A DNA stretch of 64,000 bases. Source: Variovorax davisae. GTDB lineage: Bacteria > Pseudomonadota > Gammaproteobacteria > Burkholderiales > Burkholderiaceae_C. The notes beneath the pieces were generated by a model. The model worked only from the letters and a program-made list of their open reading frames with translations. It was not told the origin of the DNA and ran no database searches. The stretch spans positions 124,001-188,000 of the forward strand of contig NZ_JASZYS010000002.1 of NCBI RefSeq assembly GCF_030316845.1, written 5' to 3'. Shown one piece after another: positions 43,936-55,902 of this stretch. The position numbers and the translations under genes are program-made. Each line of letters begins with the position of its first letter. Position 1 is the first letter of the stretch.

Positions 43936-44493
43936 TTACTTTGGGAGCAGCACCTTGTCGACCACGTGGATCACGCCGTTGGACTGCACGACGTCGGCGA
44001 TCGTCACGTTGGCCGCGTTGCCGTTGGCGTCGACCACCATCACCTTGCCATTGGCGGTCTTGGCGGTCAGCGCGCCGCCGGCCACGGTCTTCAGCGAGGC
44101 CATGCCGCCGCCGTCCTTGATCTCCTTCATCAGGGTCGCGGCGTCGATCTTGCCCGGCACCACGTGGTAGGTGAGGATGGTGCCGAGCTTGCCCTTGTTC
44201 TCCGGCTTCAGCAGCATGTCGACGGTGCCGTCGGGCAGCGCGGCGAAGGCCTCGTTGGTCGGCGCGAACACCGTGAAGGGGCCCGGACCCTTGAGCGTGT
44301 CGACCAGGCCCGCGGCCTTGACCGCCGCCACCAGCGTCGTGTGGTCCTTCGAATTCACCGCGTTGTCGATGATGTCCTTGGTCGGCAGCATCGGTGCGCC
44401 GCCGACCATCACCTGCGCCATGGCCGAAGCGGCGCCGACGGCGAGCGAGACGGCGAGGGCGATGGAAGCGGCGCGTTGGAATCTGATCTGCAT
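43936..44493 (-). CDS. Fasciclin (FAS1) domain secreted protein
   Basis: 185 aa with a signal peptide ([11 protein letters not shown]). One FAS1 domain: [20 protein letters not shown], the H1 motif [26 protein letters not shown], and [17 protein letters not shown]1 domains mediate adhesion or protein contact in the periplasm. The promoter at 44543–44572 is an exact spacing match of the RpoE-type element, so it is probably a ChrR/RpoE regulon member. A fasciclin gene (RSP1409) is an RpoE target in Rhodobacter sphaeroides, from memory. Confidence 0.9.
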
Positions 44494-44542: not shown

Positions 44543-44572
44543 TTGATACGCAGGTGCGGGCGCCGCAGATCA
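44543..44572 (-). promoter_or_regulatory. RpoE/ChrR-type promoter of the fasciclin gene
   Basis: Minus strand: -35 TGATCT (44572–44567), 18-base spacer, -10-like TATCAA (44548–44543), 50 bases before the fasciclin ATG. The two hexamers and the spacing are identical to those before rpoE at 48021–48050. It overlaps the 3' end of the CFA gene, so FAS1 has its own promoter in addition to possible read-through. Confidence 0.7.
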
Positions 44573-45802
44573 GCGTTGGGAGGCGTGCGAGAAATTAAAG
44601 AGACCGACGTCGACGCGGCCGGTGCGAAAGCCCGCTTCGCAATAGCACAGGTAGTACTCCCACAGCCGGCGAAACGCATCGTCGTAGCCCAGCGCGGCGA
44701 TGGCCGGCCAGGCCGCATGGAAGCGGCGACGCCACTCGGCCAGCGTGAGCGCATAGCTCGCGCCGAAGGATTCGGCCGTCTGCAGCACGAGGCCTGCCCG
44801 CTCGGCGTGCGCCGTCATCGCGCGCACCGATGGCAGCTTGCCGCCCGGGAAGATGAAGCGCTGCACGAAGTCGGTGCTGGCCCGATAGCGGTCGAAATGG
44901 TCTTCGGCGATGGTGATGACTTGCAGCACGCCCGAGCCGCCGGGCGCGAGCCGCTCGCGCAGCGTGTCGAAGTACAACGGCCAGTAGCGCTCGCCGACCG
45001 CCTCCAGCATCTCGATCGAGACGATGCGCTGGTAGCGGCCTTCGATATCGCGGTAGTCCTGCAAGCGCAGGTCGACGTCCGCGAGCCCCTGCGCGCGCAC
45101 CTGTGCCCGGGCGTGGGCCAGCTGTTCGGTCGACAGCGTCAGGCCGGTCACGCGGGCGCCGTGGCGGGACGCGAGTGCCGTGGCCAGCGCGCCCCAGCCG
45201 CAGCCGATCTCGAGCACCGTCGATCGCGGCGGCAGGTCGAGCAGCGCGACGATGCGATCGATCTTGGCGGCTTGCGCCGCTTCGAGCGATTCGTCGCCGC
45301 GGGCGTAGAGCGCGCTCGAGTAGATCAGCGCCGGGTCCAGCCATTGGGCATAGAAGTCATTGCCCATGTCGTAGTGGAAGGCGATGTTGCGCCGGCTGCC
45401 GCGCCGCGTGTTGGCGCGGCGCAGGCGGAACAGGTCGCCCAGGCGGCGCGCGAACCACGAGCCTTCGAGCACCCGGCCCCAGCTGGCTTCGTTGCGAATC
45501 CCGAACTCGAGCAGCGCGGCCAGGTCCGGCGTCGACCAGTCGCCATCGCGGTACGAGGCGGCCAGCCCGAGGTCGCCTTGCAGCAGCAGCCGCAGCAGCG
45601 GACGCCAGCGGTTGAGCGTGATCGAGGCCTGCGGTCCGTCCGCCGCGGCGCGGCCCGCGATGCGCTGGCCGTCCGGCAGCTGCACGTGGAGCGCACCCTG
45701 GCTCAGGCTGCGCAGCAGCCGCGCGAGCAGCTGGCGCAGCGGGCCGCCGCCGGCGCGGTCGTCGCCGCCGAAGCCGTGGGAGGAAGAGGAGGGTGCGCTC
45801 AT
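44570..45802 (-). CDS. CFA-superfamily SAM-dependent fatty acid methyltransferase (1)
   Basis: 410 aa, cyclopropane-fatty-acyl-phospholipid synthase family. SAM site [16 protein letters not shown]; family motifs [20 protein letters not shown] and [14 protein letters not shown]; late [15 protein letters not shown]. It would use SAM to cyclopropanate or methylate the double bond of phospholipid acyl chains. The start overlaps the DUF1365 stop (ATGA), making it third in the FAD–DUF1365–CFA operon. In Rhodobacter such RpoE-controlled genes include furan fatty acid functions; the exact product here is unproven. Confidence 0.9.
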
Positions 45803-46596
45803 GGATCTCGGGCCTTGGTGATGGAGACCGGCGTGGCCGGCGGCGCGGGGCGCGCGTGCAGGCGCAGGCCCCGCGTCCACAGCTTCAGCGCTTCCCAGTG
45901 GATCCCCGCCACGACCTTGAGCGTCAGCAGGGGGTGGGTGAAGAAGACGCGCAGCAGCGCGGCGTCGCCGAGCGGACGGCGCCGCGCGTCGAGCCGCGCG
46001 TGCAGCAGCACGCCCCCGGCGTCGCTCGCATCCACGCCGATGACCAGGCCCGCGCGCCCGGCCCGCGGCGGCGTAATGCGAAATCCGTAGTGCATGTCGA
46101 GCCCCAGGAAGGGCGAGACGTGGAAGCGCTTGTCGCACTGCTGCCGGATGGATTCGCCGCCGGCTTCGGCTTCGTCGACCGGGATCAGGTAGCCGTGGCG
46201 TTCGCCGAAGGTGTTGTTGACTTCGTAGAGGATCGCTTGCAGCACGCCGTCCGGCCGCAGGCAGAAGTAGACCGACAGCGGATTGAAGGCATGGCCGAGG
46301 ATGCGCGGCATGCTCAGCAGGCGGATCGGGCCGCCGGTGGGCAATCCGGCGGCGGCGAGCTGCCGCTCCACATGCGCTCGCAGGCCGCGGCCATCGCCGT
46401 AGTCGGCCTGGTGCAGGCTGAAGAGGTTGAAGCGGTCGAGCGAGAACAGGCGCAGCCGGCGATCCAGATCGGCCAGCTCGTCCAGGTCCAGCAGCAGCGA
46501 GAACAGGCGGTAGTCCAGCCGATGGCGGACCGGCCGCAGCCGCTGGTGCATCACGCGGCCGACGTACAGCGCCGATTCGTCCGGGCGGAGGCTCAT
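45799..46596 (-). CDS. DUF1365 protein
   Basis: 265 aa from MSLRPDES. Family signature: GRVMHQRLRPVRHRLDYRLF, RILGHAFNPLSVYFCLRPDG, ILYEVNNTFGERHGYL, and a FHVSPFLGLDMHYGF block. DUF1365 proteins nearly always sit between an amine-oxidase-like flavoprotein and a CFA enzyme, as here. Function unproven; a role in fatty acid modification is likely. Start overlaps the FAD gene stop by four bases. A longer start at 46644 lies inside that gene and is not supported. Confidence 0.9.
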   Translation of the reverse strand: MSLRPDESALYVGRVMHQRLRPVRHRLDYRLFSLLLDLDELADLDRRLRLFSLDRFNLFSLHQADYGDGRGLRAHVERQLAAAGLPTGGPIRLLSMPRILGHAFNPLSVYFCLRPDGVLQAILYEVNNTFGERHGYLIPVDEAEAGGESIRQQCDKRFHVSPFLGLDMHYGFRITPPRAGRAGLVIGVDASDAGGVLLHARLDARRRPLGDAALLRVFFTHPLLTLKVVAGIHWEALKLWTRGLRLHARPAPPATPVSITKARDP

Positions 46597-47951
46597 GTCT
46601 CGGCCGGCAGCCGCAGCCGCCCCGACTCGTTCGCGACCCGCCATGGACGGCGCACCTGCCCGAGCGCCTCGGCCACGGCGAGTCCGGCCTGCAGCCCGTC
46701 CTCGTGGAAGCCCGAGCCGAAATAGGCGCCGCAGAACCAGGTGCGGCCGCGGCCCTGCAGCGACCAGAGTTCGCCCTGCGCGCGCAGCGCGGCTCCATCG
46801 AACAACGGGTGCTCGTAGACCTCGCTGTGGATCAGGTGGCCGGCCGCCGGGTCGCGCCAGGGATTGAGTGTCAGGAACAGGGGCGTGGATTCGGCGATGC
46901 CCTGCAGCCGATTCATCCAGTAGGTCACGCTCAGGGCGTCGCTGCGGCGGCGGTCGGCGACGTAGTTCCAGCTCGACCAGACGGCGCGGCGCCGCGGCAT
47001 CAGGGTGGCGTCGCTGTGCAGCACGGCGCGGTTGCGGCTGTAGCGAAAGGCGCCGAGCAGCCGGCGCTCGTGCGCGCTGGCATCGGCCAGCAGCCGCAGT
47101 GCCTGGTCGGCGTGGGTCGCGATCACCACGTGGTCGAAGCGCTCGGCCGCGGCCCCGGGGGCGCAGCGCACGAAAGCGGCCTGGCCGTCGCGCCGCACCT
47201 CGATCGCCGGGCTGTCCAGCCGCAGCCGGTCGCCGAGCAGGCCGGCGAGCCGCTGCACGTAGCTGCGGCTGCCGCCCTGCACGGTGCGCCAGGCGTCGCG
47301 CCCACCGAGTTCGAGCAGCTGGTGGTTCTCGCAGAAGCGGATGAAGGCCTCGGTCGGGTAGCGGCCGATCTGCGCCGCCGGGGTCGACCAGATGGCGGCG
47401 GCCATCGGGTACAGGTGGTCGTCGCGGAAGGCGCGTCCGTAGCCGCGCAGGTCGAGGTAGACGTCGAGCGGCATCGGCCCGAAGCGCTCGGCGTCGCCGG
47501 CCGCCTGGCGGTAGAAGCGCACCAGGTCGCGCAGCATCGACCAGAAGCGCGGCCGCGCGAGGTTGGCCGGCTGCGCGAACAGGCCGCGCAGGCCGCTGCC
47601 CGAATATTCCAGCGCGCCCTGGTCGAGGCTCACGGCGAAGGACATCTCGGCGGGCCGGGTCGGCACCGCCAGGTGCGCCAGCAGCGCGCTCAGGTTCGGG
47701 TAGGCGGCTTCGTTGTAGACGATGAAGCCGGTGTCGACCGCGATCGGGCCGCCAGCCGACGGCACGTCGACCGTATGGCTGTGGCCGCCGGCCCGGCGAT
47801 CGGCCTCGAACAGCGTGACCTGGTGCCGCTGCGCCAGCAGCCAGGCGGCCGAGAGGCCGGCGATGCCGCTGCCGATGACGGCGATGGCCAGCGCCGGCCG
47901 GTCGGCGGCGCGCGGGGCAGGGGGGCCGTCGGGCGTGAAGTGGGTTCTCAT
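46593..47951 (-). CDS. FAD-dependent amine-oxidase-like protein
   Basis: 452 aa. Dinucleotide-binding VIGSGIAGLSAAWLLA near residue 25 and the GGHSHTVDVP loop; later VDTGFIVYN and AAAIWSTPAAQIG, then WFCGAYFGSGFHEDGLQAGL for the FAD C-terminal site. This group (NAD(P)-binding/flavin amine oxidase, COG2907) is paired with DUF1365 and CFA genes, so it likely oxidises a fatty acyl chain (desaturase-like). Start at 47951 lies 30 bp from the RpoE-type -10. Confidence 0.9.
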   Translation of the reverse strand: MRTHFTPDGPPAPRAADRPALAIAVIGSGIAGLSAAWLLAQRHQVTLFEADRRAGGHSHTVDVPSAGGPIAVDTGFIVYNEAAYPNLSALLAHLAVPTRPAEMSFAVSLDQGALEYSGSGLRGLFAQPANLARPRFWSMLRDLVRFYRQAAGDAERFGPMPLDVYLDLRGYGRAFRDDHLYPMAAAIWSTPAAQIGRYPTEAFIRFCENHQLLELGGRDAWRTVQGGSRSYVQRLAGLLGDRLRLDSPAIEVRRDGQAAFVRCAPGAAAERFDHVVIATHADQALRLLADASAHERRLLGAFRYSRNRAVLHSDATLMPRRRAVWSSWNYVADRRRSDALSVTYWMNRLQGIAESTPLFLTLNPWRDPAAGHLIHSEVYEHPLFDGAALRAQGELWSLQGRGRTWFCGAYFGSGFHEDGLQAGLAVAEALGQVRRPWRVANESGRLRLPAET

Positions 47952-47980
47952 GGCGGCGGGTCCTGGCACGGGTGACCTGG

Positions 47981-48010
47981 GTTCTACGCCGGCCGGGCGG
48001 TTTTGGATCA
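47981..48010 (-). promoter_or_regulatory. RpoE/ChrR-type promoter of the FAD–DUF1365–CFA operon
   Basis: Minus strand: TGATCC (48010–48005), 18-base spacer, TAGAAC (47986–47981), 30 bases before the ATG at 47951. Its -35 lies back-to-back with the rpoE promoter, 11 bp apart, giving a divergent control region. Consensus compared from memory with the TGATC-type -35 of the Rhodobacter RpoE. Confidence 0.72.
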
Positions 48011-48020
48011 GCAAACGCTG

Positions 48021-48050
48021 TGATCTAATTTCGCCGCCGGTGCGTATCAA
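48021..48050 (+). promoter_or_regulatory. RpoE/ChrR-type autoregulatory promoter of rpoE-chrR
   Basis: TGATCT (48021–48026), 18-base spacer, TATCAA (48045–48050). A transcription start near 48057 would exclude the upstream ATG at 48055, and so supports the ATG at 48154 as the rpoE start. Same hexamers and spacing as the fasciclin promoter. Confidence 0.72.
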
Positions 48051-48153
48051 CGGCATGATCACCGTGCGACAGCCCTCCGCAGCGGCCGCAAGGCCTGTAT
48101 TGCCCAGGCCCCCTGGCCGCTCGACACTGACGCTGCATCAGAACCGGGGTGCG

Positions 48154-48717
48154 ATGCCGACTAGCGAAGAACTCAGCGAGATGCTGCTGGCCGTGGCCCG
48201 CGAGGGTGATCGCCAGGCTTTCGCCGTGCTGTTCCGCCATTTCGCGCCGCGCGTGAAGGCCTACCTGATGCGCGGCGGCAGTGCCGAGGGCCTGGCCGAG
48301 GAACTGGCGCAGGAGACCCTGATCAGCGTCTGGCGCAAGGCCGCGATGTTCGACCCGCGCCAGGCCGGTGTCTCGACCTGGATCTTCACCATCGCCCGCA
48401 ACCTGCGGGTCGACCACTTCCGGCGCCAGGGCGGGGCGAGCTTCGTCGACGGCGACGACGACGAGGTCGCTGAACTGCCCGACACCGCGCTGGGGCTCGA
48501 CGAGCAGCTGCGCGCCGGGCGGCGCGCGCGCGGCGTGCGCGAGGCCTTCGCGCGGCTGCCCGCCGAGCAGGCACAGGTGCTGCACCTGTCGTTCTACGAA
48601 GAGCAGCCGCATGCGCGGATCGCGCACGACCTGGGCATCCCGCTCGGCACCGTCAAGTCGCGCGTGCGGCTTGCCGTGAACCATCTGCGTCGCTTGCTCG
48701 ACGCGCTCGAACCATGA
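48154..48717 (+). CDS. rpoE: ECF sigma factor RpoE, ECF11-type
   Basis: 187 aa. Sigma region 2 is REGDRQAFAVLFRHFAPRVK through LAQETLISVWRKAAMFDP; region 4 is LPAEQAQVLHLSFYEEQ, IAHDLGIPLGTVKSRVRLAV. The FRHFAPRVKAYLMRGG opening is characteristic of ChrR-partnered ECF11 factors. It would transcribe a stress regulon after release from ChrR. The start at 48154 is preferred over 48055 (see promoter). Its stop overlaps the chrR start (ATGA). Confidence 0.93.
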   Translation: MPTSEELSEMLLAVAREGDRQAFAVLFRHFAPRVKAYLMRGGSAEGLAEELAQETLISVWRKAAMFDPRQAGVSTWIFTIARNLRVDHFRRQGGASFVDGDDDEVAELPDTALGLDEQLRAGRRARGVREAFARLPAEQAQVLHLSFYEEQPHARIAHDLGIPLGTVKSRVRLAVNHLRRLLDALEP

Positions 48718-49370
48718 TCCACCATCACCCGGACGACGGACTCCTGCTGGCCCAGGCGGCCGGCACCCTTTCCAGCGGGCATTCGCTGCTGGTCGCCAGC
48801 CATGTCGAGGGCTGCGGCGAATGCCAGGCGCGCCTGCGCGAACTCGAATCGATCGGCGGCGCCATGCTGGAGCAGCTGGCGCCGGCCGTGCTGCCCTCGC
48901 AGGCGCTGGCGCGCACCTTGGCCGCGATCGATGCGCCGGCGCCGCCGCAGGCGAAGCCCGCGCTGCGACGCGCCAGCCGGCCGCCGCTGCCGCAGGGCAT
49001 GGCCTGGCCGCGTGCGCTGCGCGGCTGCAGCGCGACCGCGTGGCGCTGGCTCGGGCCCGGCATGCGCTGGAGCCGCGTCACGCTGCCTGGCGACCCCAAG
49101 GCCAATGTCTTCCTGCTGCGCATCGGTGCCGGCCGGGAACTGCCGGTCCACACCCACAGCCACAGCGAGCTGACCCAGGTTCTGCATGGCGCCTTCCACG
49201 ACGGCCGGGCCCTCTTCGGCGCGGGCGATTTCGACGAGACCGATGGCGACATCCGCCACCAGCCCAAGGTGCTGGCGGCCGGCGAGTGCATCTGCCTGGC
49301 CTCGGTCGAGGGCCGGGTGCTGTTCGAGGGCGCGCTGGCGCGCATGCTGGGCTCGTTGGTCGGGATGTAG
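48714..49370 (+). CDS. chrR: ChrR-type zinc anti-sigma factor
   Basis: 218 aa, two domains. The N-terminal zinc anti-sigma domain has H5, H30, C34 and C37 (HHHPDD then HVEGCGEC), the ZAS ligands of ChrR. The C-terminal cupin shows HTHSHSELTQVLHGAF and RHQPKVLAAGECICLA. ChrR holds RpoE inactive; singlet oxygen or organic peroxides release it. Coupled to rpoE by ATGA overlap. Confidence 0.93.
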   Translation: MIHHHPDDGLLLAQAAGTLSSGHSLLVASHVEGCGECQARLRELESIGGAMLEQLAPAVLPSQALARTLAAIDAPAPPQAKPALRRASRPPLPQGMAWPRALRGCSATAWRWLGPGMRWSRVTLPGDPKANVFLLRIGAGRELPVHTHSHSELTQVLHGAFHDGRALFGAGDFDETDGDIRHQPKVLAAGECICLASVEGRVLFEGALARMLGSLVGM

Positions 49371-49378
49371 GGCCCCCG

Positions 49379-49804
49379 TCAGGCGGCCGCGCCAGGGCGG
49401 CTCGGGCGGCTCGCCAGCCAGCAGGCGGCGGCCGCCGCCACCGCGGTGGCCGACACGCCCCAGCAGAGGTCGGCCAAGGTCACGTGCCAGGGCCAGTCCT
49501 TCAGGGTCGCCTGGTTGGTGAGGTCGTAGGTGGAATAGGCGACGAGGCCGAGCAGCGCCCCCCTGCCGAGCGCGCCGCGCCATTGCCGCCGGCCGAGCGC
49601 GGGGGCGACGGCCAACGCCACCACGCCCGCGACGTAGACCGCGTAGAAGACGATGGCGGGCCAGGGCGCGAAGCGCTCGCGCAGGAGGTGGCCGAGCGCC
49701 GGCCGGTAGAGCAGGTCCGCCATCGTGGTCAGCCACAGGGCGTCGAGCCCCAGGAAGACGGCCGCGGTGGCGCCGTAGGCGATCGCGAACTGCCTGAAGC
49801 TCAT
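49379..49804 (-). CDS. DUF2177 membrane protein
   Basis: 141 aa with four hydrophobic segments. Family marks: FLGLDALWLTTMADLLYRPALGHLL (in two runs) and GLVAYSTYDLTNQATLKDWP. Function unknown. Start overlaps the DUF1295 stop (ATGA). Last gene of the CFA2 operon; converges with chrR. Confidence 0.87.
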   Translation of the reverse strand: MSFRQFAIAYGATAAVFLGLDALWLTTMADLLYRPALGHLLRERFAPWPAIVFYAVYVAGVVALAVAPALGRRQWRGALGRGALLGLVAYSTYDLTNQATLKDWPWHVTLADLCWGVSATAVAAAAACWLASRPSRPGAAA

Positions 49805-50604
49805 GCCGGGTCCTTGTGCGGCGGCCCCGGGATGAAGGCGTTGGTGCGCGCGACGTAGCCGCGGTAGGCCGGCCGGCGTTCGGCGATGTCCTGCTCGAGC
49901 AGGCGCACGCCCGACACCCGCAGCAGCAGCAGCGTCATCAGCGCCGGCGAGAGGGCGGCCCAGGCGGCGCCCCAGCCGGCCGCCGCGAGGGCCATGAGCC
50001 ACAACCCCCACCAGACGCAGGCCTCGCCGAAATAGTTCGGATGGCGGCTGTAGTGCCACAGGCCGCGGTCCATCACCCGGCCGCGCTGCGACGACTGGGA
50101 CTTGAAGTGCGCCATCTGGGCGTCGGCGATGGCCTCGAAGGCGATGCCGAACGCCGCCAGCGCCGCACCGGCGGCGTCGAGTCCGCCCAGCGCCCGCCCG
50201 CCCGCCATGCCGACCAGCAGCGGCGCCGTCACGGCCCAGGCCAGCATGCCCTGCAAGCCGAACACCAGGTAGAGGCTCTTGCGCCCGAAGTGCGGCTGGT
50301 GCCGTGCCCGCATCTGCTGGTAGCGCCGATCCTCGCCGCGGCCGCGGTTGCGCCGGTGGATGTAGAGAGCGAGGCGCAGGGCCCAGACGATGCACAGCGC
50401 CGCCATCAGCCAGGCCCGCACGCCGGTGCCGGGCAGCAGCGCCAGGTAGACCAGCGCGGCGCCGCCGATGAAGGCCGGCCAGGCGCGGTCCGCCAGGCTG
50501 GCGTCGCGCTGGCGCAGGCTGACCAGCCAGGTCAGAACGGCGAGGCCGGCGATCAGGGCCAGGCCGGCCAGCGCGGGCAATGCCATCGGCGAATCGTCAA
50601 TCAT
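49801..50604 (-). CDS. DUF1295 membrane protein (steroid 5-alpha-reductase-like)
   Basis: 267 aa with six to seven hydrophobic segments. The DUF1295 marker GLWHYSRHPNYFGEACVWWG is present, plus RALRLALYI-like early blocks and DIAERRPAYRGYVARTNAFIPG at the end. Related to isoprenylcysteine methyltransferases and 5-alpha reductases, so a membrane lipid reductase or methyltransferase is likely. Overlaps the CFA2 stop by 8 bp. Confidence 0.88.
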   Translation of the reverse strand: MIDDSPMALPALAGLALIAGLAVLTWLVSLRQRDASLADRAWPAFIGGAALVYLALLPGTGVRAWLMAALCIVWALRLALYIHRRNRGRGEDRRYQQMRARHQPHFGRKSLYLVFGLQGMLAWAVTAPLLVGMAGGRALGGLDAAGAALAAFGIAFEAIADAQMAHFKSQSSQRGRVMDRGLWHYSRHPNYFGEACVWWGLWLMALAAAGWGAAWAALSPALMTLLLLRVSGVRLLEQDIAERRPAYRGYVARTNAFIPGPPHKDPA

Positions 50605-51649
50605 GGCGTTGCGCCGGCTCGAACAGGTAGTGGCTCACACCCCACGGCCGTCCGCCGGCGAAGCCGAACAGCTCGGCCACCGCCATGAAGAACACGCGCC
50701 AGCGGTTCCACCAGATGGCGGCCTCGGCACCGTAGGTGGCCGCGAACAGCGGGCGCAGGGCCTGTTGCCGGCGGTCCATGTTGGCGAGCCAGGCCTCGGC
50801 CGTGCGCTGGTAATGCGTGCCGTCCCAGCGCCACTGTTCCAGCAGCCGCAGGCTGTCCTGGCAGCGGGCCGCGAGCGCGTCGCTGGGCATCATGCCGCCG
50901 GTGAAGAAATGGCGGCTCATCCAGTCGCTGTCGTCGCGCGCGACGAAGGCGTAGGGCGTGTCCCGGTGCGCGAAGACATGCATGAAGAATCGGCCCTGCG
51001 GCGCCAGCCAGCGCGCGACGTTGGCGAAGGCCTGCGGCCAGTTGCGCAGATGCTCGAACATCTCGACCGACACCACCCGGTCGAAGCGCTGGCGGGTGTC
51101 GAAGGCGTTGATGTCCGCGGTCACGACGCGCAGGTTGCGCAGGCCGCGGCGCCGCGCCTCGGCCTCGATGTGAAGGCGCTGGCCCCGCGCGTTGGACAGG
51201 GCGGTGATGCGGCTCGCCGGATGGCGCTCGGCCATCCACAGGCTGAGTGCCCCCCATCCGCAGCCCAGTTCCAGCACCTCCTGGCCGTCGGCCAGCCCGG
51301 CCCGCTCACACGTGAGCGCCAACGCCGCGGCTTCGGCCTGGTCCAGCGTGCAGCCGGCGGCGGGCCAGTAGCCGCTGCTGTACTTGCGGTGGCCGCCGAG
51401 CACGGCGCCGAAGAAGTCGGCCGGCAGCTCGTAGTGCTGCGCGTTGGCCGCGTCGGGCCATGGCGCGAGCGCCGCGCTGCGCATCGAGGCGATGAAGTCG
51501 TGGGTCAGCCTGGCGCTGGCCGCGCGGTCGCCATCGCCGAGTTCGGCCAGCCGCGCCTGCAGCAGGCGCCGGATGCCGAAGCGCACGACGCGGTCCGGCA
51601 CCAGCCCCTTCTCGACCCAGCCGATGGCTCCGGCGATGTGATTCGGCAT
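50597..51649 (-). CDS. CFA-superfamily SAM-dependent methyltransferase (2)
   Basis: 350 aa. SAM motif VLELGCGWGALSLWMAE, then VTADINAFDTRQRFDRVVSVEMFEHLRNW (two runs), FMHVFAHRDTPYAF. It is a divergent member of the cyclopropane-fatty-acid synthase group, with a longer N-terminus and the FKYSSGYWP motif (here HRKYSSGYWP). Substrate unknown; under an RpoE-type promoter it likely works on membrane acyl chains under oxidative stress. Confidence 0.9.
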   Translation of the reverse strand: MPNHIAGAIGWVEKGLVPDRVVRFGIRRLLQARLAELGDGDRAASARLTHDFIASMRSAALAPWPDAANAQHYELPADFFGAVLGGHRKYSSGYWPAAGCTLDQAEAAALALTCERAGLADGQEVLELGCGWGALSLWMAERHPASRITALSNARGQRLHIEAEARRRGLRNLRVVTADINAFDTRQRFDRVVSVEMFEHLRNWPQAFANVARWLAPQGRFFMHVFAHRDTPYAFVARDDSDWMSRHFFTGGMMPSDALAARCQDSLRLLEQWRWDGTHYQRTAEAWLANMDRRQQALRPLFAATYGAEAAIWWNRWRVFFMAVAELFGFAGGRPWGVSHYLFEPAQRHD

Positions 51650-51694
51650 GCCTGCGTTTCCTCGAACGTCGGCACCGGTGCAGTGCCCCGGTCT

Positions 51695-51724
51695 CTGGTA
51701 CGCGGCCAGCGGCAGTTTGGATCA
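51695..51724 (-). promoter_or_regulatory. RpoE/ChrR-type promoter of the CFA2–DUF1295–DUF2177 operon
   Basis: Minus strand: TGATCC (51724–51719), 18-base spacer, TACCAG (51700–51695), 46 bases before the ATG at 51649. The bases after the -35 (AAA) also match those of the 48005 site. The -10 is poorer than the others after the leading TA. Confidence 0.62.
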
Positions 51725-51851: not shown

Positions 51852-53051
51852 ATGAGCCGACGCGAGAGGAAACAAGGCGGGCACCATGGTGCACGGTGCG
51901 CGTTCGTGGGCGCCATCGCACTGTTCGCTGCCGCGGCGGCCTTCGCGGCCGAACCGGATCCGGCGCGGGCACGCGAACTGGTGCAGGCTGCCCAGGCCCA
52001 GCCCCCGAGCACGGTCGCCGCGCACCTGGAACTCGGCCGCGCCTATTACGTGCTCGGGCAGTACGCCGAGGCGAAGATCGAGTTCGAGACCGTGCTGCGC
52101 TTCGACAACCTGCCGCAGGACCTGTTGAGCCAGGTCGAGATCTACAACCAGGCCGCGACCCAGGCGCTGGACGGCAAGCGGCCGCTCACCGGTTTCGGCT
52201 ATGCCGAGACCGGCATCGGGCGCTACCGGGTGAACAGCACCGTCGGCACCAACGCGCTCGGCGGCGGCGACCGCCGCGACACCTTCTACAACGCGCGCGC
52301 GGGCGGTGGCCTGAACTATGCGCTGCCGAACGACTACGCGATCGACGCCACGCTGGACTATCGCTTCCGCCACTACGACAACTCGGACAGCCGCAACGAC
52401 TCCGACCTGCGCTGGCGCCTGGCCGGCAGCCGCTCGTTCGGCGACAGCAACCTGGCGGTCGGACTCCGCGGGCGCAACAGCTATCGCGGCGACGGCGACT
52501 ACCGCAACGACGCCGGCCTGTTCGCCGACTACCGCTATCGCGTCGACCCCGACAACCAGCTCACGCTGGGCGCCGAGTACCGCCGCCGCCGCTATCCCGA
52601 AGGCAGGCTGCGCGACAGCAGTCGCACCAGCGCCGAAGTCTCGGGCGGCTGGGTGCATTCGCTGCTGGACGGCGCCGGCAGCCTGACGCTCACCGCGCAT
52701 GGCGGCCAGCATTTCGCGACCAGCCGGCCGGACGGCAACTCCAGCTTCTACGGCGCCACCGCCGCGCTCGACTTCACCGTCAACAGCAAGGTGGGCTGGG
52801 GCACCTTCGTCTGGTGGGAGCACGATGCCTTCAACAACGACCGCATCCACTTCCACCCCGACACGCTCGACAACAGCGTGCTGCTGCGCCGCAAGGACAA
52901 CCTGTACGAGGTCGGTGCCTACCTGGTGTGGGAGTTCGTGCCCACCTGGACGCTGCGGCCCGAGGTGCTCTGGATTCGAGACCAGAGCAACTCGATCGGA
53001 TTCAACTACAGCTCGACGGAGTTCTGGCTGAACATCCGCAAGGCCTTCTGA
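51852..53051 (+). CDS. Outer-membrane beta-barrel protein with TPR-like N-terminus (DUF560/Slam-like)
   Basis: 399 aa. Signal peptide ends AAAAAFAA|EPD. Residues 40–100 resemble two TPR units (AHLELGRAYYVLGQYAEAKIEF). From about 120 to 399 the alternating pattern of aromatic and polar residues (GFGYAETGIGRYRVN, LDYRFRHYDNSD, GAEYRRRRYP) ends with the C-terminal FWLNIRKAF, a typical outer-membrane barrel signal with final Phe. This layout is like surface lipoprotein assembly modulators. Function unproven. GAGGAG precedes the ATG. Confidence 0.72.
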   Translation: MSRRERKQGGHHGARCAFVGAIALFAAAAAFAAEPDPARARELVQAAQAQPPSTVAAHLELGRAYYVLGQYAEAKIEFETVLRFDNLPQDLLSQVEIYNQAATQALDGKRPLTGFGYAETGIGRYRVNSTVGTNALGGGDRRDTFYNARAGGGLNYALPNDYAIDATLDYRFRHYDNSDSRNDSDLRWRLAGSRSFGDSNLAVGLRGRNSYRGDGDYRNDAGLFADYRYRVDPDNQLTLGAEYRRRRYPEGRLRDSSRTSAEVSGGWVHSLLDGAGSLTLTAHGGQHFATSRPDGNSSFYGATAALDFTVNSKVGWGTFVWWEHDAFNNDRIHFHPDTLDNSVLLRRKDNLYEVGAYLVWEFVPTWTLRPEVLWIRDQSNSIGFNYSSTEFWLNIRKAF

Positions 53052-53173: not shown

Positions 53174-54595
53174 ATGGCTTCGACTGACCAAAAGATGTCG
53201 CGCATGCAGCTCACTGCGATGGTGGTGGGCGGCATGGTCGGCGCGGGGATCTTCTCCTTGCCGCGCACCTTCGCGAACGCGACCGGCCCGCTCGGGGCCG
53301 TCATCGCATGGCTCATCGCGGGCACCGGCATGTACATGCTGGCGCGGGTCTTCCAGTCGCTGGCCGAGCGCAAGCCCGACCTCGACGCCGGCGTCTTCGC
53401 CTATGCCAAGGCCGGCTTCGGCGACTACCCCGGCTTCCTGTCGGCCTTCGGCTACTGGATCGGCAGCTGCATCGGCAACGTGTCGTACTGGGTGCTCATC
53501 AAGTCCACGCTGGGCGCCTTCTTCCCGGTCTTCGGCGACGGCAACACGGTGGTGGCGATCGTGGTCGCATCGGTGGGCATCTGGCTGTTCCACTTCATGA
53601 TCCTGCGCGGCATCAAGCAGGCGGCCTTCATCAACAGCGTGGTCACGGTCGCCAAGATCATCCCGATCCTGGTCTTCATCGCGCTCTTGGCCTTCGCCTT
53701 CAAGATGGACCTGTTCAGGGCCAACCTGTACGGCGGCGGCCTCGAGGGCGGGATCTTCGAGCAGGTGCGCGCCACCATGCTGGTCACGGTGTTCGTGTTC
53801 CTCGGCATCGAGGGCGCCAGCGTCTATTCGCGTTTCGCCAAGGAGCGCGCCGATGTCGGCAAGGCCACCATCATCGGCTTCATCGGCGTCACCGGCCTGA
53901 TGGTGCTGGTGTCGATGCTGCCCTACGCGGTGCTGCAGCGCGCCGACATCGCCGGCATGCGCCAACCCTCGATGGCCACGGTGCTGGAGGCGGTGGTCGG
54001 CCACTGGGGCGCCATCTTCGTGAGCGTCGGCCTGATCGTCTCGGTGCTGGGCGCCTACCTGGCCTGGTCGCTGATCTGCGCCGAGGTGCTGTTCACCGCG
54101 GCCAAGACCAAGGACATGCCGGCGATCTTCGCCAAGGAGAACAGCAACCAGGTGCCGGCCAACGCGCTGTGGCTGTCGAACATCATCGTCCAGCTGCTGG
54201 TGATCACCACCTACTTCTCGAATGACGCCTTCGCGCTGATGCTCAACCTGACCAGCGCGATGGCGCTGATCCCGTACCTGTTCGTGGCCGCCTACGGCTT
54301 CATGATCTCGAAGCGCGCCGAGACCTACCAGCTGCGCCCCGAGGAGCGCACGCGCGACCTGATCATGGCGTCGGTGGCGGTGATCTACACGGTGTTCATG
54401 ATCTACGCCGGCGGCCTCAAGTTCATCCTGCTGTCGGCGGTGCTGTACGCGCCCGGCACGCTGCTCTACATCTGGGCCCGGCGCGAGCAGGGCAAGACCG
54501 TCTTCACGGTCACCGACTGGGTCATCTTCCTGGTCGCGGTGGTGGGTGCCGTGGTCGGCATCTACGGCCTCGCGACCGGCACCATCACCATCTAG
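53174..54595 (+). CDS. Arginine/ornithine antiporter-like amino acid transporter (ArcD/APC)
   Basis: 473 aa with about thirteen membrane helices. APC-superfamily opening: [20 protein letters not shown], then [30 protein letters not shown] (two runs), later [16 protein letters not shown]. The gene directly precedes arginine deiminase, which points to arginine import coupled to ornithine or citrulline export. AAGGAG lies just upstream of the ATG. No arcB or arcC seen nearby. Confidence 0.88.
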
Positions 54596-54642
54596 TCACA
54601 AGCTGGATATACCGTTCATTCATCGGATCTTTGGAGATCATC

Positions 54643-55902
54643 ATGGCGACTACGGAAGCGAAAGAGACAACGTTCGGCGTGCACTCGGAAGTCGGGCAAC
54701 TGCGCAAGGTGATGGTGTGCGCCCCGGGCCTGGCCCATTCGCGCCTGACGCCGAGCAACTGCGACCAGCTGCTGTTCGACGACGTGCTGTGGGTCGAGAA
54801 CGCCAAGCGCGACCACTTCGATTTCGTCACCAAGATGCGCGACCGCGGCATCGAGGTGGTCGAGATGCACAACCTGCTGGCCGAGACGGTGGCGGTGCCC
54901 GAAGGCAAGAAGTGGATCCTCGACAACCAGGTGGTGCCCGACCAGGTCGGCCTCGGCTTCATCGACGAACTGCGCAGCTACCTCGAGGGCCTGGACAACC
55001 GCAAGCTGGCCGAGACGCTGATCGGCGGCCTGTCGACCAACGACTTCCCCGAGTCGGTCGGCGGCAAGGCGCTGGCGGTGGTGCGCGAGGCCGCCGGCGT
55101 CACCGAATACCTGTTGCCGCCGCTGCCCAACACGCTCTACACGCGCGACACCACCTGCTGGATCTACGGCGGCGTGACGCTCAACCCGCTGTACTGGCCG
55201 GCGCGCCACGAGGAAACCATCCTCACCACCGCGATCTACAAGTTCCATCCCGACTTCGCCGGCAAGGTCAACGTCTGGTGGGGCGACCCGACCGAAGACC
55301 ACGGCCTGGCCACGCTCGAAGGCGGCGACGTGATGCCGATCGGCAAGGGCAACGTGCTGATCGGCATGAGCGAGCGCACCTCGCGCCAGGCCATCAGCCA
55401 GCTGGCGGCCACGCTGTTCAAGAAGGGCGCGGCCGAGCGCGTGATCGTGGCGGCGATGCCGAAGATCCGCGCCGCGATGCACCTGGACACCGTGTTCACC
55501 TTCGCCGACCGCGACTGCGTGCTGCTGGCGCCGGACTTCATGAACCAGACCCGCACCTACTCGTACCGGCCCAGCAGCCATCCGAGCGGCGTCGAACTGC
55601 ATGCCGAGAACAAGCCCTTCGTCGACGTCGTGGCCCAGGCCCTGGGCTTCAAGAAGCTGCGCGTGGTCGAGGCCGGCGGCAGCGACTACCAGCGCGAGCG
55701 CACCCAGTGGGACAGCGGCGCCAATCTGGTCTGCGCGTCACCGGGCGTGGTTTATGCATACGACCGCAATACCTACACCAACACGCTGCTGCGCAAGCAG
55801 GGCATCGAGGTGGTGACCATCGTCGGTGCCGAACTGGGCCGCGGACGGGGAGGCGGCCATTGCATGACCTGCCCGATCATTCGCGATCCGGTCGACTTCT
55901 GA
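54643..55902 (+). CDS. arcA: Arginine deiminase
   Basis: 419 aa, full length. Catalytic Cys in [10 protein letters not shown] (about residue 409), with the partner motifs [43 protein letters not shown] and [12 protein letters not shown]. It hydrolyses arginine to citrulline and ammonia. GGAG sits eight bases before the ATG at 54643; a TTG at 54631 is less likely. Only antiporter and deiminase are present, so citrulline could be exported rather than processed by the usual OTC and carbamate kinase, unless those lie elsewhere. Confidence 0.96.

Follow-up and report, generated by a model that had tools for sequence, protein, structure and literature searches.

RpoE-type promoter elements around rpoE-chrR in Variovorax davisae and a predicted regulon of furan-fatty-acid and envelope genes

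Known RpoE-ChrR systems and the Variovorax locus

Here, we describe a stretch of 64,000 nucleotides from Variovorax davisae (NCBI RefSeq assembly GCF_030316845.1, contig NZ_JASZYS010000002.1, positions 124,001 to 188,000; hereafter, the window), in which four copies of a promoter element, TGATCY-N16-CGTA, surround the sigma/anti-sigma gene pair rpoE-chrR. As far as can be judged from the DNA, the regulon that they mark is real and of a known kind. We consider it highly probable that the four RpoE-type promoters form one regulon: singlet oxygen or organic peroxide would release RpoE from ChrR, and the free sigma factor would drive both the rpoE-chrR operon and the genes of a predicted furan-fatty-acid pathway. 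Papers given by their PubMed Central (PMC) numbers are cited for particular passages and tables.

The locus resembles the sigmaE-ChrR system of Rhodobacter sphaeroides (ECF11; ECF, extracytoplasmic function) in its sigma/anti-sigma pair, its predicted autoregulation and its promoter type. UfaD, UfaO (with domain DUF1365), a methylase of the cyclopropane fatty acid (CFA) type and the fasciclin protein RSP_1409 are also targets or co-listed genes there; RSP_1409 is tabled with RSP_1087-1091 and rpoHII, with log2 changes of 2.8 and 4.5, and a CFA gene belongs to the proposed RpoE-ChrR core regulon (PMC5507510). An earlier reading of the window made without database searches (the sequence-only reading) had named fasciclin and CFA genes as RpoE targets in Rhodobacter, and this is borne out. 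The arrangement is different, however. Judging from locus numbers, ufaD and ufaO of R. sphaeroides (RSP_1091 and RSP_1090) adjoin rpoE-chrR (RSP_1092 and RSP_1093), with ufaM (RSP_2144, together with phrB) and the fasciclin gene elsewhere, whereas in the window a single cluster of 7.8 kb contains ufaM, the fasciclin gene, a predicted FufM-like methylase gene, DUF1295 and DUF2177. In addition, rpoHII is a target in R. sphaeroides, whereas none of the nine element sites in the V. davisae genome was seen before a photolyase gene or rpoH.

By sequence, the window pair is of the RpoE-ChrR (ECF11) type:

48154 to 48717, + strand: rpoE, ECF sigma factor of the RpoE-ChrR type (best PDB match 2q1z; sigma70 r2 and r4)
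48714 to 49370, + strand: chrR, anti-sigma factor with a cupin-like domain (TIGR02451; alignment to 2z2s)

The best hit of RpoE among solved structures is SigE of R. sphaeroides (2q1z) at 131 bits, the second-ranked chain reaching 65, and ChrR scores 191 bits against TIGR02451 (cut-off 124.5). The zinc ligands described for ChrR are His6, His31, Cys35 and Cys38 in the anti-sigma domain and His141, His143, Glu147 and His177 in the cupin domain (PMC6852236); all eight are present when the window protein is aligned to 2z2s.

Chromatin immunoprecipitation sequencing (ChIP-seq) of the Pseudomonas syringae orthologue gave TGATCC-N16-CGTA (PMC5507510), Shewanella RpoE2 promoters have TGATCC and CGTA-type elements, with starts mapped for rpoE2 and pgpD (PMC4336711), and the Vibrio form is TGATC-N16-18-CGTAW, given with N16-18 or N18 (PMC5241685). 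The four window sites had been called RpoE-type promoters from their letters, a name that the match to the P. syringae consensus and the Shewanella promoters, together with the kinship of the pair, upholds. The presumed autoregulatory promoter before the window rpoE has TGATCT instead of the consensus TGATCC. The P. syringae PSPTO_1043 regulon shares this consensus, has ufaD, ufaO and cfa homologues in a phrB locus, and includes an esterase/lipase gene with the motif (PMC5507510); unlike the window, it offers no mention of the words fasciclin, DUF1295, DUF2177 or DUF1365 in the main text of that paper.

For the chemistry, UfaM, UfaD and UfaO, the last carrying a DUF1365 domain, turn a cis-vaccenoyl lipid into a methyl furan lipid; in Rhodopseudomonas palustris, RPA2571, 2570 and 2569 are UfaD, UfaO and UfaM, and a second methyl group is put on by FufM (RPA0924), which has 26% identity with UfaM (PMC7380195). 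The window shares the ufaD-ufaO-ufaM order and the presence of a second, weakly CFA-like methylase. By locus number, fufM of R. palustris lies far from the trio, whereas in the window only 2.6 kb separates the FufM-like gene from ufaD; this gene adjoins DUF1295 and DUF2177 and has its own RpoE-type promoter.

Four promoter elements in the window

The predicted promoters are as follows:

48021 to 48046, + strand: predicted RpoE promoter of rpoE-chrR, TGATCT-N16-CGTA (sequence match; recurs before rpoE in relatives)
47985 to 48010, - strand: predicted RpoE promoter of ufaD-ufaO-ufaM, TGATCC-N16-CGTA (sequence match; kept in relatives)
44547 to 44572, - strand: predicted RpoE promoter of the fasciclin gene, TGATCT-N16-CGTA (sequence match; present in relatives L132 and L133)
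51699 to 51724, - strand: predicted RpoE promoter of cfa2-DUF1295-DUF2177, TGATCC-N16-CGTA (sequence match; kept in relatives)

The sequence-only reading had reported these sites as TGATC(C/T)-N18-TA close to the sigma/anti-sigma pair. A search of both strands of the window for TGATCY-N18-TA recovers the same four and no others in 64,000 bases, all inside 7.2 kb around rpoE-chrR; 100 dinucleotide shuffles of the window gave a mean of 0.41 matches and at most 3, so that four or more were reached in 0/100. The spacing of 18 reported for all four is true if one counts to the TA. Because a C-G precedes the T-A at every one of them, the element is better written in the tighter form TGATCY-N16-CGTA, with a spacer of 16.

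Each site stands in front of an operon, as had been said, the distance from TA to the ATG (start codons checked) being 107 nt for rpoE, 33 for the flavin adenine dinucleotide (FAD) protein gene ufaD, 53 for fasciclin and 49 for cfa2. The −35 hexamer is TGATCT at the rpoE and fasciclin sites, which had correctly been described as identical, and TGATCC at the ufaD and cfa2 sites. The rpoE and ufaD promoters are back to back, with their −35 elements 10 bp apart, and the TGA of the fasciclin-site −35 is the stop codon of the upstream ufaM (CFA1). From left to right, the locus reads fasciclin, CFA1, DUF1365 and FAD (- strand), rpoE and chrR (+ strand), and DUF2177, DUF1295 and CFA2 (- strand); neighbouring genes overlap by 4 to 8 bases at ufaD/ufaO, ufaO/ufaM, rpoE/chrR, CFA2/DUF1295 and DUF1295/DUF2177.

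A scan of both strands of the whole 7.18 Mb genome, which the sequence-only reading had proposed as a check, likewise shows an excess: 30 matches to the loose TGATCY-N18-TA against 11 for the reversed control, and 9 to the tight TGATCY-N16-CGTA against 2. The reversed control underestimates the background, and a better yardstick is provided by congeners without a ChrR match, 16 of which hold 71 tight sites, or 0.70 per Mb. At this rate, one would expect 0.005 sites in 7.2 kb, and the probability of at least four is about 3e-11 (Poisson, for a single anchored locus). The genomes of the genus that bear ChrR have 7.0 sites each (n=21), compared with 4.4 in those without it (n=16; p = 0.007).

Conservation of the element in relatives

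Relatives were picked by protein alone and not by the element: a search with CFA2 supplied 80 named loci (the best of 240 found) and one with ChrR supplied 20 congener stretches, the two sets having three genomes in common. The exact element was counted within 200 nt upstream, and matches below 60 bits and genes whose match starts beyond residue 30 were dropped. Relaxed counts allowed up to two mismatches among the six −35 letters and required a spacer of 16 and CGTA within 150 nt upstream.

In chrR-bearing loci, the exact element precedes rpoE in 27/31 named and 19/20 congener cases (46/51), mostly about 108 nt from the start. It precedes cfa2 in 15/31 and 9/13 (24/44), DUF2177 in 7/29 and 7/17, and ufaD in 6/28 and 2/17 (8/45), respectively; for fasciclin, the counts are 0/1 and 2/2, the two being L132 and L133, which have the same gene order. 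It was found before none of the internal genes of these loci (chrR 0/51, DUF1295 0/46, ufaO 0/42, cfa1 0/28). When spacers of 8 to 25 were scanned before the five target genes, 94 exact matches fell at 16, 4 at 17, 1 at 15, 1 at 24 and 0 elsewhere; permuted motifs (200 draws) gave a mean of 0.02 and a maximum of 2, and TGATCC alone scores 59.

With the relaxed element, the counts at spacer 16 become 46/51 for rpoE, 43/44 for cfa2, 41/45 for ufaD, 14/46 for DUF2177 and 2/3 for fasciclin, compared with 3/167 at internal genes (ufaO 0/42, cfa1 0/28, chrR 0/51, DUF1295 3/46). At spacers of 12, 14, 15, 17, 18 and 20, every gene has at most 5 matches (ufaD, 0 to 5 of 45). Because the relaxed counts for ufaD and cfa2 are so high, their predicted promoters are kept nearly everywhere, with a −35 of varying strength, and the window has the consensus forms. 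DUF2177 has a predicted promoter of its own in some relatives.

Among the named loci without chrR on the stretch, the exact element precedes cfa2 in 6/48 (L060, L067, L069, L071, L095 and L108) and ufaD in 0/13; the chrR of those six loci may lie elsewhere in their genomes. A ChrR match (E 1e-10) occurs in 21/37 genomes of the genus and in 2/200 sampled across the order, the window's own included, a patchy distribution that may reflect transfer or frequent loss. One congener (G213) has two ChrR genes on two contigs, and its rpoE on L148 is without the exact element.

Predicted furan-fatty-acid operon and fasciclin gene

The genes to the left of rpoE are the following:

46593 to 47951, - strand: ufaD-like FAD amine-oxidase-type protein, predicted methyl-fatty-acyl desaturase (Amino_oxidase 71 bits; R. 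palustris gene order)
45799 to 46596, - strand: ufaO-like DUF1365 protein, predicted furan-forming oxygenase (DUF1365 272 bits, scanned with three extra codons; ATG checked)
44570 to 45802, - strand: ufaM-like S-adenosylmethionine-dependent fatty-acyl methylase of the CFA synthase family, CFA1 (CMAS 266 bits, scanned without the ATG; ATG checked)
43936 to 44493, - strand: fasciclin-domain protein (Fasciclin 122 bits)

The FAD-DUF1365-CFA genes stand in the order of R. palustris RPA2571-2570-2569, the latter taken from locus numbers. Because DUF1365 marks UfaO and the gene order equals that of the R. palustris trio, the operon is predicted to be a ufaD-ufaO-ufaM furan-fatty-acid operon. It had been read as an FAD–DUF1365–CFA operon behind an RpoE-type promoter; the promoter stands, and the genes are better understood as this predicted operon than as a mere CFA operon. 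The best PDB match of CFA1 is CFA synthase (196 bits, compared with 46 for the coclaurine N-methyltransferase type).

Within the genus, DUF1365 is found in 21/21 genomes with ChrR and 7/16 without. The latter seven congeners (G206, G215, G216, G221, G227, G231 and G233) have a DUF1365 protein without a ChrR match, and five of them (G206, G215, G216, G227 and G231) also have CFA2; their furan module is apparently under another control.

The cfa2, DUF1295 and DUF2177 genes

To the right of chrR, three genes share the fourth predicted promoter:

50597 to 51649, - strand: cfa2, predicted FufM-like methylase of the coclaurine N-methyltransferase branch (PDB matches; co-occurrence with DUF1365)
49801 to 50604, - strand: DUF1295 membrane protein, predicted sterol/steroid-reductase fold
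49379 to 49804, - strand: DUF2177 protein, predicted four-helix membrane protein (DUF2177 149 bits, scanned without the ATG; ATG checked)

The nearest solved relatives of CFA2 are coclaurine N-methyltransferase (222 bits) and the pavine and protoberberine N-methyltransferases (down to 163), with CFA synthase at 109; against the CMAS family it scores 127 bits. Across the genus (37 genomes), CFA2, scored at an E-value no higher than 1e-60, is present in 22/28 genomes with DUF1365 and 0/9 without (p = 4e-5). A survey across the class (274 genomes including the window's own, with up to seven candidates scored per genome) found DUF1365 in 28/34 genomes with CFA2 and 50/240 without it (p = 3e-12), the exceptions with CFA2 and no DUF1365 being G346, G366, G391, G450, G460 and G511. 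One should keep in mind that both p-values overstate the association, the genomes being related. FufM homologues are reported to be confined to a subset of organisms with predicted Ufa enzymes (PMC7380195), and Arabidopsis AT4G33110 has been named a FufM homologue (PMC10940516). We predict CFA2 to be FufM-like because of its coclaurine-type relatives, its co-occurrence with DUF1365 and this naming of AT4G33110.

The DUF1295 protein is predicted to share its membrane fold with steroid 5-alpha-reductase and delta-14-sterol reductase. For DUF2177, a structure model was obtained with a predicted local distance difference test score (pLDDT) of 94.4, and a Foldseek search with it gave no match with E under 1 and no convincing PDB relative.

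Sites beyond the window and the msrP promoter series

The regulon had been called local. The cluster around rpoE-chrR is indeed there, but a purely local regulon is ruled out, as three more of the nine tight genomic sites stand upstream of start codons and recur in near relatives. One stands before a molybdopterin oxidoreductase gene (Pfam Oxidored_molyb; C12:287422-287447, kept in G222 and G225), which we take to be msrP. The others stand before a lipocalin gene and an esterase-type gene (C23:39427 and C3:174135, both kept in G225), the esterase-type protein having a lipoprotein-like signal. The other two are most likely background: C23:144907 precedes a frame of 401 aa for which Pfam gave no match, and C23:186916 falls within a frame. 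When 20 further sites in three congeners were examined, drawn from 138 listed congener sites with cluster sites included, 4 were orthologues of the msrP, lipocalin or esterase sites, and most others were background-like, inside frames.

The msrP promoter was compared between the V. davisae genome and its congeners (29 of the 36 were searched, and 28 of these gave a match), and the hexamer was read 16 bases before CGTA, within 110 nt of the gene. Three hexamers occur in ChrR genomes only, TGATCC in 4, GAATCC in 2 and TGAACC in 1. GAAACC is found in 6 genomes with ChrR and 10 without, and GAAGCC and GAAACT in one genome each, both without ChrR; the remaining ChrR genomes have a different hexamer (1) or no CGTA (3). 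A −35 leaning toward TGATCC is thus seen in 7/17 genomes with ChrR and 0/12 without (p = 0.02, uncorrected for kinship). The series from GAAACC through GAATCC or TGAACC to TGATCC keeps CGTA and the 16-base spacer, and it looks like the capture of msrP from another ECF sigma factor by a change of the −35. The Caulobacter gene yedY (CC2748) is assigned to the sigmaF set and has GTAACC-N16-CGAA (PMC3511200).

Proposed mechanism and alternative explanations

In the mechanism that we propose, ChrR would hold RpoE through its zinc anti-sigma domain, for which the ligands are present and binding is predicted. Singlet oxygen would lead to the loss of ChrR, as papers on Rhodobacter suggest by analogy, and RpoE would then transcribe from TGATCY-N16-CGTA. 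From homology, gene order and PMC7380195, we infer that cis-vaccenoyl lipids would be methylated by the UfaM-like enzyme, desaturated by the UfaD-like one and oxidised by the UfaO-like one, and that the resulting methyl furan fatty acid would react with singlet oxygen. CFA2 is predicted to add a second methyl group, as FufM does. More speculatively, DUF1295 might be a membrane NADPH reductase that handles the spent, ring-opened furan. The fasciclin protein, MsrP, the lipocalin and the esterase would repair or protect the envelope.

One alternative is that the sites are chance matches in GC-rich DNA. Congeners in which ChrR was not matched do have 4.4 copies of the bare element each on average, but the shuffles, the Poisson probability for four sites in 7.2 kb and the conservation of position and of spacer 16 across relatives rule out such an origin, as the sequence-only reading had argued from proximity, and we give it virtually no weight. 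A subtler possibility is that the sites are real but regulation is confined to rpoE-chrR and cfa2, the matches at ufaD and fasciclin being by-products of the shared divergent spacer and of a stop codon. The exact element does precede ufaD in just 8/45 relatives, the fasciclin −35 does coincide with the ufaM stop codon, and fasciclin can be checked in only three chrR-bearing relatives with a mapped start. The relaxed −35 with N16-CGTA, however, precedes ufaD in 41/45 relatives, compared with at most 5 at any of the six other spacers, the fasciclin element is retained in L132 and L133, and fasciclin and ufaD homologues are linked to RpoE in other genera, all of which makes this restricted version quite improbable.

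Other doubts concern what the proteins do. CFA2 could be an ordinary second cyclopropane synthase with no link to furan lipids, as its place within the CMAS family and the 6/34 CFA2 genomes of the class without DUF1365 would allow. Its closer match to the N-methyltransferases than to CFA synthase, the reverse of what CFA1 shows, its restriction in the genus to genomes with DUF1365 and the reported FufM homology of AT4G33110 (PMC10940516) point the other way, and we find the ordinary synthase somewhat unlikely. DUF1295, too, could be something other than a reductase, namely an ICMT-like methyltransferase acting on lipids or proteins, which we also regard as the less probable assignment. A regulon in which the four RpoE-type promoters serve rpoE-chrR and a predicted furan-fatty-acid pathway thus remains our preferred explanation.

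A parallel in Chlamydomonas

In Chlamydomonas, 104 genes need SAK1 for induction by singlet oxygen, and Table 5 of PMC4067076 orders them by induction. It has CFA1 in row 2, CFA2, also annotated as coclaurine N-methyltransferase, in row 11, FAS2 (fasciclin) in row 12, DUF1365 in row 18, DUF2177 in row 22 and DUF1295 in row 25, as well as GPX5 in row 14 and MSRA3 in row 19; each DUF name occurs once in the paper, in this table. Six of the seven effector families of the window therefore appear within the first 25 rows, a match at the level of families only. Unlike the window, the alga uses a eukaryotic regulator, SAK1, and no RpoE-ChrR, and the FAD protein has no separate entry in the table.

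One could go further and propose one complete furan shield, in which UfaM, UfaD and UfaO would make the methyl furan lipid and CFA2 would add its second methyl group. The furan, consumed by singlet oxygen, would open to a reactive ene-dione, DUF1295 as a steroid-reductase-like membrane enzyme would reduce it, and DUF2177 and fasciclin would be membrane and surface partners, the six families under SAK1 being a module shared by bacteria and green algae. We hold this extension to be rather doubtful. If true, it would mean one singlet-oxygen lipid module common to bacteria and green algae under unrelated regulators.

The CFA/GPX5 part of this parallel is not new, since a 2021 review notes that CFA and GPX5 genes are common to Chlamydomonas and Rhodobacter and that a furan-type modification was being sought (PMC8491031). 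Among the matches listed in the open-access literature on ChrR with Variovorax, Burkholderiales or betaproteobacteria, no work on RpoE-ChrR in Variovorax was found. Nor was a paper that joins DUF1295, DUF2177 and fasciclin to RpoE-ChrR found among the open-access matches listed, or such a link in the relevant passages of PMC4067076, PMC7380195, PMC10940516, PMC11313482, PMC8491031 and PMC7074977. The membership of DUF1295, DUF2177 and CFA2 and the msrP −35 swap series appear to be new.

Promoter, neighbourhood and co-occurrence place DUF1295, DUF2177 and CFA2 in a bacterial singlet-oxygen response, and two of the three gain a testable place in furan-lipid chemistry. Singlet oxygen would likely switch on rpoE-chrR and three lipid or envelope gene groups together, predicted furan-lipid synthesis included. 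This suggests furan lipids as a means by which the Variovorax group of bacteria protects itself from singlet oxygen. We recommend following up the extended furan module, the members predicted to resemble FufM and a reductase, the series of msrP promoters and the parallel with Chlamydomonas.

Neighbouring genes

Divergent from cfa2, a gene at 51852-53051 encodes a 399-aa protein with weak TPR matches only in Pfam. It is followed at 53174-55902 by a predicted amino-acid antiporter gene and then an arginine-deiminase-like gene, both labelled by eye.

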